Part shown: piece by piece, positions 1 to 5,001 of the stretch
Position numbering within the stretch: position 1 is the first letter of the stretch
How the letters are laid out: each line of letters starts with the position of its first letter
The notes under the pieces: model-generated
Told to the model about the DNA's origin: nothing
What the model saw: the letters and a program-made list of their open reading frames with translations, nothing else
Database searches by the model: none
Program-made: the position numbers and the translations under genes
Source: an uncultured Eubacterium sp.
GTDB lineage: Bacteria; Bacillota_A; Clostridia; Lachnospirales; Lachnospiraceae
Direction: 5' to 3'
Length of the DNA: 5,001 bases
Assembly: GCA_948759685.1 (NCBI GenBank)
Contig: CAQBGY010000289.1
Coordinates: 1 to 5,001 of the forward strand

Positions 1-215
1 AATTACAGGAGCAGGATAATTTTGTCTCTTTATGGAGTGATAGTACAATTAAGAAAATTCGGCAGGTACTTATTAGAATGTTGGTTGAAAATGGTTATTT
101 GGATCATATTAAATCAGAACATCTTAACCCGGTATTGCTTAGTTCCGTGCTGGAAAATGGAATACGAAATAACAATGATGAAAGAGTGCTTCCGGCATTT
201 AATTGTTTTATGTAG
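1..215 (+). CDS. brxA: BrxA (DUF1819), BREX protein, C-terminal fragment cut by the window edge
   Basis: The reading frame is open from base 3 to the TAG at 213-215 and gives the last 70 residues of a protein whose start lies left of the window. The translation contains SLWSDSTIKKIRQVLIRML near its beginning and ends in DERVLPAFNCFM. A W-x-x-ST-x-KK helix, a 'L-x-E-x-G-Y-L' segment and a terminal 'ND-x-R-x-LPAFNCF' are what I know from the C-terminus of DUF1819/BrxA proteins, which are normally about 200 residues long. BrxA is a small helical DNA-binding protein of BREX phage defence. In the E. coli system it is reported to be dispensable for host methylation. The stop is 12 bases before the brxB ATG, so the two genes share an operon. 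An overlapping open frame with a TTG start at 22-228 encodes nothing family-like and is a shadow of this gene. The identification is firm mainly because brxB and brxC follow in the expected order. Confidence 0.88.
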   Translation, partial: LQEQDNFVSLWSDSTIKKIRQVLIRMLVENGYLDHIKSEHLNPVLLSSVLENGIRNNNDERVLPAFNCFM

Positions 216-220: not shown

Positions 221-227
221 ATAATTG

Positions 228-785
228 ATGAGTGAATTAAATGAAAGACTGGACAATCTGAAACAGGAAATTCAACAGGAAGAGTTTCTTGAGGGAAAGG
301 GATTGAGCAATGAGGTGAATATCCGTATTTTTTGTTATGATCCCAAAGAAGAGATGACCGTTCGTCACTTTATAGAGCAGTTAATGGTTGATCAATCATT
401 AGAATGTCATTTGATACAATGCAATTTGTATCAGATATTTCTCAAAATATGTGATGAAAAGCGCATTACAAACGGTGCGCCTGCTATGGAAGAAAAAAAG
501 GGAAAGGATTACCTGCTACAGCAGATACAACGTTTTGCAAATAACAAGGCTTTTGTGGAACAGATACAATACGGACCACATAACGCGGGAGATGTGCTGA
601 TGCTCACTGGAATAGGAGAAGTATTTCCATTTATGAGAATCCATTCATTATTGGAGGCATTACAGCCAGAATTTTCGGATATACCGATACTGGTATTTTA
701 TCCAGGGAAATATGATGGAAGATTTGTAAGGCTGTTTGATCAGTTAGAACCGAATCCGTATTACAGGGCGTTTAACATTGTTTAG
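228..785 (+). CDS. brxB: BrxB (DUF1788), BREX protein
   Basis: This is a complete 185-residue protein of the DUF1788/BrxB family, close to the usual length of about 190-200. Family hallmarks seen are the N-terminal LNERLDNLKQEI helix followed by FLEGKGLSNE (residues 20-29), then IFCYDPKEE (34-42). The C-terminal half contains LTGIGEVFPFMR (126-137), FYPGKYDG (157-164) and the closing YYRAFNIV (178-185). No signal peptide or membrane segment is visible, so it should be cytoplasmic. BrxB has no assigned enzymatic activity. In E. coli BREX it is needed, with BrxC, PglX and PglZ, for both host methylation and phage exclusion, and is thought to act as a structural partner in that complex. It sits 12 bases after brxA and 14 bases before brxC. 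The ATG at 228 was chosen because of the AGGGAGA upstream; a TTG lies one codon earlier. Confidence 0.95.
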   Translation: MSELNERLDNLKQEIQQEEFLEGKGLSNEVNIRIFCYDPKEEMTVRHFIEQLMVDQSLECHLIQCNLYQIFLKICDEKRITNGAPAMEEKKGKDYLLQQIQRFANNKAFVEQIQYGPHNAGDVLMLTGIGEVFPFMRIHSLLEALQPEFSDIPILVFYPGKYDGRFVRLFDQLEPNPYYRAFNIV

Positions 786-799
786 AAGGAGAGCTGCCA

Positions 800-3700
800 A
801 TGATAATTCAAAATATGTTCTATGATGATATCAATCGTAAAATCAACGGAGTGGTTAAAGTAGACCAAAACACAGACGAGGTTTTGAAACAGGAAGTAAA
901 GGAATATGTCATAACCAAAGACATTCGCAAACATTTGATTGACTTTTTTAATCATTATGGCAGTTCTTTTGAAGAACCGACAGCGGATGTGGGTGTGTGG
1001 ATATCAGGTTTTTTTGGAAGTGGTAAATCTCACTTTTTGAAAATGCTTTCTTATTTATTAGAGAATAAAGAGATAAATGGCAGAACTGTAGAGGACTATT
1101 TCCGCGAGAAATTTGATGATGAGGCGACCTTTATGTCTATAGCAAGGGCAATTGGCGGCAAAAATCAGACAATATTGTTTAATATAGATATTGAGGGATC
1201 TATCAATAAGGATAAAACGGCAGTTCTTCGCGTGTTTGCCAAAATGTTCTATAACTACCTTGGATTTTATGGCGAAAATCTGAAGGTAGCGAAGTTGGAA
1301 CAGTTTATTGAAAGGCAAGGTAAAACAGCAGAATTTCGCAGAGTATTTGAGGAGAAAAATGGTGCATCATGGATAGAGTCACGCGATGCATTTGCGTTTT
1401 TTGAGGATGATGTTGTTGATACTTTGATGGAAGTATTGGGAATGAGCGAGACAGCGGCGCATAACTGGTTTGACGGGACAGAGACGGTGGAAACCAGCAT
1501 AGCGCAGCTTGTCTTGGAAATAAAAGAATATATTGATACACAGCCAAAGGATTTTCGCCTTTTATTTATGGTAGACGAGGTGGGGCAGTATGTGGGAGAC
1601 AGTATTGATTTATTGATGAATCTGCAATCTTTTGTGGAAAAAATCGGAAGTGAATGTGGCGGCAGGGTATGGGTGGTATGCACCGGACAAGAAGCCATTG
1701 ATGAGATTATCAAGACAAGACAGGATCAATTTTCACGTATTCAGGCCAGATTCAGCACCAGATTATCTCTGACATCGTATTCTGCGGATGAAGTGATTCA
1801 AAAACGTATCCTGCGTAAGAAAGAAGATGCGTTTATTTCTCTGGAAAAAGTATATAACGAGAATGATTCAGTGCTTCGGAATCTCTTTACTTTTACAGAT
1901 TCTGTTTTGGATATGAAAGGGTATGGGAGTTCTGTAGAGTTTGCGAAGAATTTTCCGTTTGTACCATATCAGTTTATTATTATGCAGAAAGTTTTCTCTG
2001 AAATCCGCAAGCATGGTAATTCGGGCAAGCATCTTTCTGGTGGAGAGCGGTCTATGCTGTCAGGATTTCAGGAGGCGGCACAGAAGATAGAAGATAAGAG
2101 TGAGTATGCGTTAGCTCCATTTTATCTGTTTTATGATACAGTACATACGTTTCTTGACAGTTCTATTCGCCGTGTCATTGAGCGTTGTCAAAAGGCGGCT
2201 GACAATAAAGATGGAATTGAGCAGCAGGATGTGTCGGTGTTAAAACTCCTGTATTTAATCCGTTACATAGATGATATAAAGGCAAATCTGGATAATATTG
2301 TTATTTTAATGGCAGATGATATCCGGGTAGATAAAATCATTATGCGCGCTCAGGTAAGCGGATCGTTAGATCGTCTGTTGAGCCAGAACTATATTGGAAG
2401 AAGTGGTGATACTTATAATTTCCTTACCGATGAAGAACAGGACATTCAGAAAGAAATCACGAATACGATGGTTGATACTTCAACAATTGTTGGTAAAATT
2501 GCGCATATCATATTTGGTGAAATATATTATACGAAGAAGTATCGTTATGAAAAATATGACTTTGCCTTTGACCAGATGGTAGATTATACTGCGGTAGGCG
2601 CTTTGACAGGCGATATGCGTCTTAGGATTATGACTGTGGCGACAGAGTGGGCGGAAAAGACAGAACTTCGTATGCTGGCAGAATCAGCAAAGCAGGCAAT
2701 TGTGGTACTTGCGGAAACGCCATATTATGAATATTTGGAAAGCGCCGAGAAGGTGTGGAAATATAAGAAACAAAGAAATATAGCACAGTTGCCGGAATCT
2801 GTGAAGAATATTATCAAGAATCATCAAAATGAGGCGGAAAGATACGAATCAAGTGCAAAGGAACAATTAGAAAAGGCAATTGAGGGTGCAGCTTTTTATG
2901 TAGATGGGGAACATATTGAGATAAACAGCGGGAATGCCAAGAGCAAACTGGATCAGGCACTGGAATATCTAGTGACACATGTATATAGTGAATTGGGTTT
3001 GATTTCAAAAAATGCAGAGTCAGATGCAGATATTATTGCGATTCTTACAGGTGCAGTAAATATGCTGCCCGGTACTGAACCAAACCGTGATGCGGCAGCT
3101 AAAGTAGAAGAATATTTAGAAATGCAGGAAAGAAAGCATCTTCCCACTTCTATGGCTGATGTGCAAAGTCGCTATCAGTCTATTCCTTATGGGTGGAAAG
3201 AGATTGATATTGCGGCAGTATGTGCAATGCTGATTGTGGAGCAGAAAGTGACAATCAAGTATGCAGGTTCTACAGTACAGCCCAACAATCCAAAACTACC
3301 CGATATGCTTCGCAAAAAGAGTGAGATTGGAAAAACGCAAATATCCAAACGACAGGTAGTATCAGCAGCCAGAATGAAGGCAGTAAAAGAGTTATTACGG
3401 GATTATTTTAGCCAGATGGATGTTCCGTCAGACGAGGATGGATTGATTGCCTTTATGATTGAAAAATTTGAGGGGCTGCGGACTCACTATGAGGAATTGC
3501 TCAGAAGATATGAAGGGCATAACTATCCGGATAAACCAGTGGTTAATAATGCACTTGCAATTGTGAGGGATGTATTATCACAACAGAAGGATAATTTGGC
3601 GTTCATTGAACGTGTGCTTCAAAAGGAAGACAGCCTTTATGATACACAGGAGGCAATGCAAAGAGTGGAGGCTTTCTTTAAAACACAGGTTAGTATATTT

Positions 3701-4327
3701 GATGCAGCAGTGAAATTTGAAACAGAGCTGCGAAATGATTTGGATTATATTCGTAAGGATGAGGAAGCGAATACTGCTTTAAGTACAATACGTCTTATTA
3801 CGATGCTGCCAACAAGCGGGAAATATCAGTATGGCAGGATTCCGCAGCTGAATGATTTAATTGCAAAAGTAAAAACGTCTCATGACAAAATGTTAATTGA
3901 GAAACGAAAAGAACTTTTGGATATTGTTCAGCAGTGTATGGGAGAGATTCATCAGGCAGGCAACGGAGATGCAAAAGTAAAGACGATCATTGAAAGGTCG
4001 GATATATATTATACACAGCAGAAAGAGAAGATTGCAGAGACGATGAGCCTTGCATTGATGGAGGGGTATCCGATACCAATGTGGAATTATCGGGATGATG
4101 CTGTGTCTAAGATAGAGGGCGCATTGGAGCCTCCAAAACCTATAGAATCGCCAAAGCCTATGAACACAAATACAACATCGAAGAAAACATATAAGCCTAT
4201 TTTCCGCCAGTCCTTACTGAAGGCAGCAAGACTTGAAAGCGAGGACGAGATTGATATCTATGTGGATAAGCTCAGAGAACAGTTAAAGACATTGTTAAAA
4301 GGTTCGGATGGGATTGAATTAAAATAG
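800..4327 (+). CDS. brxC: BrxC, BREX P-loop ATPase
   Basis: This complete 1175-residue protein matches the usual length of about 1200 for BrxC, the large ATPase of BREX. The family works with BrxB, PglX and PglZ in site-specific methylation of host DNA and in blocking phage replication. The Walker A loop is GFFGSGKSH (residues 70-78, catalytic Lys76). The Walker B strand is LLFMVDE (254-260, Asp259/Glu260). A WVVCTGQE strand (291-298) fits a sensor position, and RIQARFSTRLSL (313-324) holds candidate arginine-finger residues. HLSGGERSM (411-419) resembles an ABC signature but is at a position where BrxC proteins have a similar conserved motif. Residues about 527-549 look like a winged-helix hairpin. 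The second half is mostly helical, and a proline-rich linker (about 1111-1126) precedes a conserved helical tail (1128-1175). The AAGGAGAG at 786-793 supports the ATG at 800. No frameshift or loss of key residues is seen, so the ATPase appears intact. Confidence 0.96.
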   Translation: MIIQNMFYDDINRKINGVVKVDQNTDEVLKQEVKEYVITKDIRKHLIDFFNHYGSSFEEPTADVGVWISGFFGSGKSHFLKMLSYLLENKEINGRTVEDYFREKFDDEATFMSIARAIGGKNQTILFNIDIEGSINKDKTAVLRVFAKMFYNYLGFYGENLKVAKLEQFIERQGKTAEFRRVFEEKNGASWIESRDAFAFFEDDVVDTLMEVLGMSETAAHNWFDGTETVETSIAQLVLEIKEYIDTQPKDFRLLFMVDEVGQYVGDSIDLLMNLQSFVEKIGSECGGRVWVVCTGQEAIDEIIKTRQDQFSRIQARFSTRLSLTSYSADEVIQKRILRKKEDAFISLEKVYNENDSVLRNLFTFTDSVLDMKGYGSSVEFAKNFPFVPYQFIIMQKVFSEIRKHGNSGKHLSGGERSMLSGFQEAAQKIEDKSEYALAPFYLFYDTVHTFLDSSIRRVIERCQKAADNKDGIEQQDVSVLKLLYLIRYIDDIKANLDNIVILMADDIRVDKIIMRAQVSGSLDRLLSQNYIGRSGDTYNFLTDEEQDIQKEITNTMVDTSTIVGKIAHIIFGEIYYTKKYRYEKYDFAFDQMVDYTAVGALTGDMRLRIMTVATEWAEKTELRMLAESAKQAIVVLAETPYYEYLESAEKVWKYKKQRNIAQLPESVKNIIKNHQNEAERYESSAKEQLEKAIEGAAFYVDGEHIEINSGNAKSKLDQALEYLVTHVYSELGLISKNAESDADIIAILTGAVNMLPGTEPNRDAAAKVEEYLEMQERKHLPTSMADVQSRYQSIPYGWKEIDIAAVCAMLIVEQKVTIKYAGSTVQPNNPKLPDMLRKKSEIGKTQISKRQVVSAARMKAVKELLRDYFSQMDVPSDEDGLIAFMIEKFEGLRTHYEELLRRYEGHNYPDKPVVNNALAIVRDVLSQQKDNLAFIERVLQKEDSLYDTQEAMQRVEAFFKTQVSIFDAAVKFETELRNDLDYIRKDEEANTALSTIRLITMLPTSGKYQYGRIPQLNDLIAKVKTSHDKMLIEKRKELLDIVQQCMGEIHQAGNGDAKVKTIIERSDIYYTQQKEKIAETMSLALMEGYPIPMWNYRDDAVSKIEGALEPPKPIESPKPMNTNTTSKKTYKPIFRQSLLKAARLESEDEIDIYVDKLREQLKTLLKGSDGIELK

Positions 4328-4362
4328 AACAAATAGGAATGATTCTATAACGGAGGCAGGGT

Positions 4363-4872
4363 ATGGATATTGAAAAAATAAAAGAGGATTTAAGCATATG
4401 CTATCTTAAAACAATAGCTGCCGTTAGAGGAATTGCAGTTGAGCGGATAGAACATGATGAGGATAGTGTTGATGTCGTTATAAAAAAGATTTTAAATATA
4501 GATAAAAATGTGTCATTCAATTCGCAGATTAGTGTACAACTGAAAGCAACATCTTCCAAATCACAATATGGCATAGGCAAACAGGAAATCTCGTATAAGT
4601 TAAAGGTGAAAAATTATAACGATTTATGTATGCCTGCTACGATGCCCAGTATGTTGGCATTGCTGATCCTGCCGGAAGAGATGGAAGAGTGGACGAAATG
4701 GACACCGGATGAATTGATGATTAAAGGAAAAATGTTTTGGCTATCATTACAGAATCAAGAAGAGTCTGATAATAAAGATAATGTTACGGTTAAAATTCCT
4801 AAGGAAAACATTTTGAATGCGGACACCATTGAAAATCTGATCAAAAAAGCGGCTGAGGAGGGGATTTTATGA
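4363..4872 (+). CDS. DUF4365-like protein, possible PD-(D/E)XK nuclease domain
   Basis: This is a complete 169-residue cytoplasmic protein, not a core BREX component. It resembles small DUF4365-type proteins. An N-terminal helix with Glu5 and Glu8 leads into YLKTIAAVRGIAVER, followed by DSVDVVIKK with Asp37 and ISVQLKAT with Gln59 and Lys61. Asp, then a strand with Q-x-K, is the layout of a PD-(D/E)XK nuclease core, so Asp37 and Lys61 are candidate active-site residues. Further landmarks are LKVKNYNDL (80-88), LALLILPEEMEEW (98-110), FWLSLQ (125-130) and VTVKIPKENIL (141-151), which I associate with the same family. DNA cleavage is inferred from fold similarity only. The gene starts 35 bases after brxC, with GGAGG at 4352-4356 placed 6 bases before the ATG, and no terminator lies between, so it is probably co-transcribed with BREX. 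Its stop overlaps the start of the next gene. It could instead be a nuclease-fold protein without catalysis. Confidence 0.85.
   Translation: MDIEKIKEDLSICYLKTIAAVRGIAVERIEHDEDSVDVVIKKILNIDKNVSFNSQISVQLKATSSKSQYGIGKQEISYKLKVKNYNDLCMPATMPSMLALLILPEEMEEWTKWTPDELMIKGKMFWLSLQNQEESDNKDNVTVKIPKENILNADTIENLIKKAAEEGIL
4855..4863 (+). promoter_or_regulatory. Ribosome binding site inside the upstream gene, for the overlapping downstream gene
   Basis: GAGGAGGGG lies within the last codons of the DUF4365-like gene (encoding its EEG segment) and ends 5 bases before the ATG at 4869. It is a near-ideal Shine-Dalgarno sequence. Together with the ATGA stop/start overlap it points to translational coupling and supports 4869 rather than the later ATG at 4896 as the start. 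Confidence 0.75.
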
Positions 4873-5001
4873 TATATTCTGTAAATTTTGTGGATATGAC
4901 ATTGAAATTAAATCCTCTGGCTGTGACAAAATATCTATCAGAAACAAATTGGGAGCTATACCCAATCAAAAGAAATGATATTAAAATTTTTCAATACAAA
5001 A
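4869..5001 (+). CDS. Unrecognised protein, N-terminal fragment cut by the window edge
   Basis: The frame opens with ATG at 4869 and stays open to the end of the window, giving 44 residues and one extra base. It begins MIYSVNFVDMTLKLNPLAVT and continues with KYLSETNWELYPIKRNDIKI. The stretch 'NP-x-A-V-x-x-YL-x-x-x-x-W' recalls a family of unnamed bacterial proteins that start with a 'YL-x-x-x-GW' helix and that I remember next to DUF4365-like genes; I cannot confirm this from the sequence. It is not the start of a recognisable PglX methyltransferase: no SAM-binding motif is reached in this fragment, and the sequence is unlike the PglX N-termini I know. The start overlaps the previous stop by ATGA, so the two proteins are probably made in a coupled ratio and may act together. 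An in-frame ATG at 4896 is the alternative start, but the strong upstream ribosome binding site favours 4869. No function is assigned. Confidence 0.8.
   Translation, partial: MIYSVNFVDMTLKLNPLAVTKYLSETNWELYPIKRNDIKIFQYK

Follow-up and report, generated by a model that had tools for sequence, protein, structure and literature searches.

What are two overlapping genes, here called A and B, doing behind brxC in a bacteriophage exclusion (BREX) operon, and do they belong to that operon or form a system of their own? The question is raised by positions 1 to 5,001 of contig CAQBGY010000289.1 from an uncultured Eubacterium sp.; this whole stretch of 5,001 nucleotides is called the window. The likeliest answer is an independent nuclease system that acts as a backup and shares the expression of BREX, for which we infer a defence activity with B as its trigger. 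Computed were the identity of the pair, its conservation as a unit, its standalone occurrence, its operon-like integration and the cargo character of the junction in which it lies; predicted were a nuclease fold and conserved motif in A and an OB-type fold at the C-terminus of B. Since accessory nucleases nested in BREX are already known as a kind and the pair is catalogued by PADLOC, the new part, not found in the literature searched, is the BREX placement of the pair and the reading of A as a DREN-type nuclease with an OB-fold partner. A widely spread, uncharacterised defence candidate thereby gains a concrete, testable nuclease-plus-sensor model.

The features of the window are the following:

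3..215, + strand: 3' end of brxA (PADLOC BrxA, residues 2-69, E 7.4e-18)
225..785, + strand: brxB (Pfam BrxB, E 5e-37; PADLOC BrxB, E 3.8e-81)
800..4327, + strand: brxC, 1175 residues (NCBIfam NF033441, 1196.2 bits, cut-off 400)
4352..4356, + strand: GGAGG, likely ribosome-binding site of A, 6 nt 5' of its ATG (read from the sequence)
4363..4872, + strand: gene A, a DUF4365 / PDC-M02A protein of 169 residues, predicted PD-(D/E)XK nuclease of DREN type
4471..4473, + strand: codon for D37 of A, predicted to bind metal (alignment)
4537..4545, + strand: codons Q59-L60-K61, QxK motif of A (alignment)
4855..4863, + strand: GAGGAGGGG, probable ribosome-binding site of B, located within the end of A (read from the sequence)
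4869..5001, + strand: first 44 codons of gene B (PDC-M02B, E 1.4e-11 on 43 residues), cut by the window end

Gene A belongs to DUF4365 (PF14280, 71.7 bits against a curated cut-off of 24.3, covering residues 8-162) and matches PADLOC PDC-M02A with E 1.3e-50; an NCBIfam scan of A gave no match. The fold predicted for A is that of a PD-(D/E)XK nuclease, closest to the DREN nuclease of SPARDA, in line with the preliminary description of this DNA, which had spoken of a DUF4365-like module with a nuclease-fold-like gene. The position of D37 is occupied by D in 27/27 aligned copies of A and those of Q59 and K61 by Q and K in 26/27, the exception being the truncated copy of locus L044; the D/QxK motif is thus kept in all 26 intact copies aligned. 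According to the accessible part of PMC12205087, D41 of the NbaSPARDA DREN nuclease corresponds by motif order to D37, and its Q60/K62 are comparable to Q59/K61. Q62/K64 of TmuRE are comparable as well. A profile search yielded 170 relatives of A at E <= 1e-3 among 219 candidates, and the nonsynonymous difference pN (0.18-0.25) lies well under the nearly saturated synonymous difference pS (0.84-0.87) in three pairwise comparisons of loci L001, L002 and L003; the open reading frame (ORF) of A is therefore not a product of chance. A second DUF4365 gene occurs in genome G001 (L010, 3092-3610) between the gene of a type I restriction-modification (RM) specificity subunit and, one gene on, that of the R subunit; no PDC-M02B match was found there by profile search.

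Gene B has a full length of 405 residues in L001 and matches PDC-M02B with E 4.9e-151. Its conserved N-terminal part carries the signature [RK][FLM]G[QH]T[EK]xGS[FY], and an OB fold is predicted at its C-terminus. When L001, L002 and L003 are compared, B has pN of 0.17-0.24 and pS of 0.69-0.76, near synonymous saturation, and both genes are under strong purifying selection. Pfam found no domain above cut-off in 13 B proteins (those of L001, L002 and L003 and ten more), NCBIfam gave no match for two B proteins, and a PDB sequence search with alignments of A and of B gave 0 matches each at E <= 10; the PHROGs families matching well are families of unknown function. A HicA-like fold considered for the first 70 residues of B was dropped for want of Pfam support. 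In the BREX-nested copies B contains a 77-nt direct repeat, 78 nt from start to start and in frame (L001, 11392-11546; L034, 10637-10791), whose copies are 81% (L001) and 84% (L034) identical; it sits at the join to the OB-type fold and lengthens B by about 25 residues (405, where most aligned relatives have about 380). The OB region of the B profile also matches weakly (E 6.5e-4) within one very long ORF in genome G581 (L039, 315-5312).

Both genes match the PDC-M02 models of PADLOC strongly and in the same order, PDC-M02A next to PDC-M02B, and by these models the window pair is a member of PDC-M02. PADLOC lists it as a phage defence candidate without a function, the label PDC being used for candidates according to the available part of PMC11514479. 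No paper joining DUF4365 with BREX and none naming PDC-M02 was found in the literature search, nor was a BREX-nested PDC-M02, the search on BREX accessory genes having covered part of its matches.

The window shows brxA, brxB and brxC in the order of BREX type 1 according to family models, followed by A and the overlapping B on the same strand, as first described. Between brxC and A lie 35 bases. A scan of region 4100-5001 revealed no + strand terminator-like site, which upholds the earlier statement that no terminator separates the two genes; the single site of this kind is on the - strand and falls within B. Promoter-like sites number two in this region against a shuffle mean of 3.4, one per strand and both inside A, and none in the brxC-A gap. 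Partial termination between brxC and pglX is described for Salmonella BREX in the accessible part of PMC9009780; the same scan gave no sign of it after brxC in the window. A and B share the ATGA at 4869-4872, and the pair is probably transcribed and translated together with BREX.

Gene content beyond position 5001 was read from relatives, the window itself ending inside B. Locus L001 (Lachnospiraceae bacterium A4) is 99.26% identical to the window over 4998 bp, gap-free, and L034 (genome G384) 98.2% over 4773 bp, its brxA end aligning separately at 94.6%; the 133 bases of B present in the window are identical in both. It had been proposed to look further right for pglX and pglZ: in both relatives pglX lies directly 3' of B, followed by pglZ and brxL. 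The stop codon of B overlaps the start of pglX (TAATG) in L001 and likewise in L034, where the order is brxA, brxB, brxC, A, B, pglX, pglZ, brxL with nothing between (ORF map, PADLOC). In L001/L009, pglX matches NF033452 with 1418.7 bits (cut-off 500), and pglZ (type A, TIGR02687) and brxL (TIGR02653) exceed their cut-offs; in L034 they were recognised by PADLOC. The downstream set of BREX type 1 is thus present in the relatives, and by these family matches both of them carry the pair within a complete BREX-1 operon.

Genomes G384 and G001 belong to different genera, neither being in the genus list of the other, and PDC-M02B occurs in 1/10 and 1/38 genomes of these genera, in that order. From this, the BREX island, together with the pair that it holds, appears to have passed from one genus to another. 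Within it, pglX (L001, 11724-15392; L034, 10969-14571) is 69.6% identical while brxC, pglZ and brxL are 97-99% identical, as if pglX had been replaced, perhaps with a change of target site.

Pair loci were drawn from genomes (where one scan, made with A, gave four loci), plasmids (8 of 11 records), phages (1 of 2 records) and IMG/VR (12 distinct loci); plasmid and phage records H2, H4, H9 and H13 are outside the pair set. Also outside the 25 intact loci are L004 (contig ends in A), L022 (plasmid record cut at the origin; the same plasmid is counted as L040), the duplicates L011, L053 and short loci from the genome search, the broken or partial pairs L036 (two B fragments without A), L044 (A truncated), L045 (A in two pieces) and L052 (a B fragment of 230 residues, no A found), as well as the weak match L039. 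The L036 fragments (1490-2016, genome G284) represent a decayed copy.

Lack of conservation as a unit had been named as a possible refutation: in 25/25 intact loci A immediately precedes B, with both genes on one strand, with an overlap of 1-22 nt in 24/25 (counted from first possible start codons) and one base between them in L046. The divergence of A and B is correlated (r 0.837 over 24 loci, reached by 0/5000 permutations), which points to joint inheritance and does not prove contact between the proteins. No BREX gene was found in 23/25 intact loci (stretches of 7.6-21 kb), so that the pair does occur on its own elsewhere, as had been suspected; judged by these neighbourhoods it is very probably an autonomous unit that exists outside BREX.

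Many of the loci are on plasmids, viral contigs or mobile elements. Plasmid-borne pairs were seen in Phaeobacter, Gluconobacter, Paenarthrobacter, Caballeronia and Methylobacterium, and on an Entomospira plasmid, where the pair adjoins DUF262 genes and an Abi gene follows at a distance of 4 kb. One pair ends the record of a mycobacterial prophage, one adjoins a phage-type integrase (L033), and one is carried by an element that also has genes for a MobA/MobL relaxase and a topoisomerase (L032). Elsewhere a type I RM operon begins 49 nt after the pair (L002), or the pair stands next to a Ppl gene (L037) or to bSEFIR and caspase genes (L038); the visible neighbours in L003 look ordinary by eye. 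The pair is rare, being present in 5/397 genomes of the family of G001 (one a decayed copy) and in 4/398 of its phylum (one a weak match), G001 itself entering both counts.

The place between brxC and pglX was surveyed in the best 30 brxC loci each of the family and the phylum, genomes above cut-off numbering 40/397 and 46/398; the two lists share L083 and L091, and L075 and L108 were dropped because of contig ends. In the family the gene after brxC is pglX in 19, pglZ in 1 and another ORF in 9 of 29 informative loci out of 30; the phylum gave pglX in 21 and another ORF in 6 of 27 informative loci out of 28 new ones (L115 judged on 296 nt). Taken together, brxC is followed in the 56 Bacillota BREX loci by pglX in 40 cases and by pglZ in 1; the other 15 have a different ORF there, two of these inserts being the A-B pair. 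As a control, brxB is directly before brxC in 56/58 of the same loci, and the exceptions are not foreign inserts: in L119 brxC is broken and its first piece was counted, and L068 has no recognised brxB there and pglZ after brxC. Domain scans of six of the seven non-pair inserts of the family survey revealed bSEFIR in L078 and, behind a small protein, in L073, HEC-01A in L069 and an AriA-like ATPase in L090. Among plasmid BREX loci (8 of 267 records with a brxC match), pglX follows brxC in 7, and BrxU stands between them in pEFER. By these gene orders the junction of brxC and pglX receives cargo repeatedly. Because it takes genes in 15/56 loci, several matching known or candidate defence families, and the brxB-brxC junction does not, it is a place to look for new defence systems.

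A small protein of 127-162 residues with a hydrophobic-looking start follows brxC in L073 (961-1440), L074 (1058-1438), L086 (989-1447) and L076 (- strand); by sequence L076 is arranged like L073. It precedes a SEFIR-type gene in two of the four loci, and the proteins of L073, L074 and L086 had no Pfam or PADLOC match.

With SPARDA, A shares the predicted fold, the Pfam family and the D/QxK motif of its DREN-type nuclease domain. It differs in being a nuclease alone without a fused APAZ, as a protein of 169 residues with DUF4365 at residues 8-162 has no room for a second domain. The partner differs too: Pfam does not recognise B as an Argonaute, and an OB-type fold is predicted at its C-terminus. 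No Piwi match was found by Pfam in B or in the five genes after B in L001, the neighbours being brxC and pglX, and no SPARDA chain is among the best 50 structure matches listed for B, in which residues 1-290 are barely covered. BrxU of the pEFER BREX resembles A-B as an accessory nuclease gene between brxC and pglX; it is, however, a single GmrSD-family DUF262/DUF1524 protein, and Pfam found neither domain in A or B. For PARIS, neither an AriA ATPase nor a TOPRIM nuclease domain was found in A or B by Pfam. The ATPase and DUF4435 pair of Salmonella StySA BREX is presumably PARIS. It is likewise a two-gene accessory module inside a BREX operon, but lies between pglX and pglZ (accessible part of PMC9009780). 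PMC12839542 describes nucleases, PD-(D/E)XK enzymes among them, that lie inside the core loci of BREX as auxiliary or backup effectors, the same general class as A; its main text has no occurrence of DUF4365, PDC or SPARDA. That BREX loci carry extra restriction genes had been remarked earlier.

We propose a complex of the two proteins, with A inactive until B engages a DNA structure made by the phage. This target would probably be single-stranded DNA, bound via the predicted OB fold, while the conserved N-terminal part of B may hold or assemble A. Activated A would then cut DNA, by analogy with DREN in SPARDA once assembled into tetramers, and within BREX the pair would provide a second layer, directed at phages able to escape or inhibit BREX. 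That the pair is an independent module nested in BREX is, taken alone, very probable. The whole statement, an autonomous, mobile two-gene anti-phage nuclease system carried as BREX-1 cargo, with A gated by B and acting as a second layer, is favoured with some reserve, and the step in which B senses single-stranded DNA, taken alone, is tentative and somewhat short of even. A wider conjecture, which more probably fails than holds, is a DREN effector system without Argonaute, in which an OB-fold partner sensing phage single-stranded DNA replaces the guide-loaded Argonaute, in a dedicated and exchangeable BREX slot between brxC and pglX. An accessory defence module sharing BREX expression had been suggested at the outset: the nested, operon-like position was borne out, while the defence role stays a presumption and the pair turned out to be a PADLOC candidate already.

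The same data can be read as modification-dependent, type IV-like restriction, in which the N-terminal part of B would read modified phage bases and A would cut, complementing BREX as BrxU does. BrxU occupies the same junction, cuts modified DNA and protects independently of BREX, and DUF4365 is assigned to the Mrr subfamily of PD-(D/E)XK nucleases in the accessible part of PMC6299218; yet a modification-reader domain was not among the results of Pfam for the 13 B proteins, which leaves room for an undescribed reader, and we consider this explanation unlikely. Less likely again is a guard or toxin-antitoxin-like pair, in which B would restrain A and free it upon a block of BREX or host replication, leading to abortive infection, as PARIS does in response to restriction inhibitors. 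The tight A/B gene overlap and the co-divergence would fit, and BREX loci do contain ATPases of PARIS type (L090 with its AriA-like gene; PMC12839542, section 35), but the 23/25 intact loci in which no BREX gene was found mean that the pair cannot depend on watching BREX only.

The overlapping codons of A/B and B/pglX and the island common to two genera could also suggest that the pair has become an integral part of BREX in this lineage, needed for its restriction or methylation. This is very improbable: in L085, with a brxC 85% identical, pglX starts 28 nt after brxC without the pair, and the accessory ATPase and DUF4435 genes of Salmonella BREX are dispensable for methylation according to the accessible part of PMC9009780. 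A degraded BREX end and B as an unusual pglX had both been raised as possible refutations, and together with chance ORFs in decay they have a negligible probability. The pair is intact in the relatives with pN far under pS, and B matches PDC-M02B, has no Pfam match and is followed by pglX; as pglX, pglZ and brxL continue past B, the locus is neither a BREX remnant nor does it hold an odd pglX, as far as the relatives show. Preferred over all of these is the independent nuclease pair with its proposed gating by B.

The islands of the relatives hold further genes. Between pglX and pglZ, L001 (15480-20308) has a transposase-like stretch, labelled by eye, and four extra genes, which code for an Eco57I-type methylase, a 774-residue protein with two HATPase matches, a 213-residue protein and an HNH protein. 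They are missing from L034 and may be a second cargo module. After brxL, L009 carries a gene of 408 residues (6623-7849) matching the PADLOC candidate PDC-S54 (E 3.2e-102), and the ORF after brxL in L034, from 19328, starts similarly.
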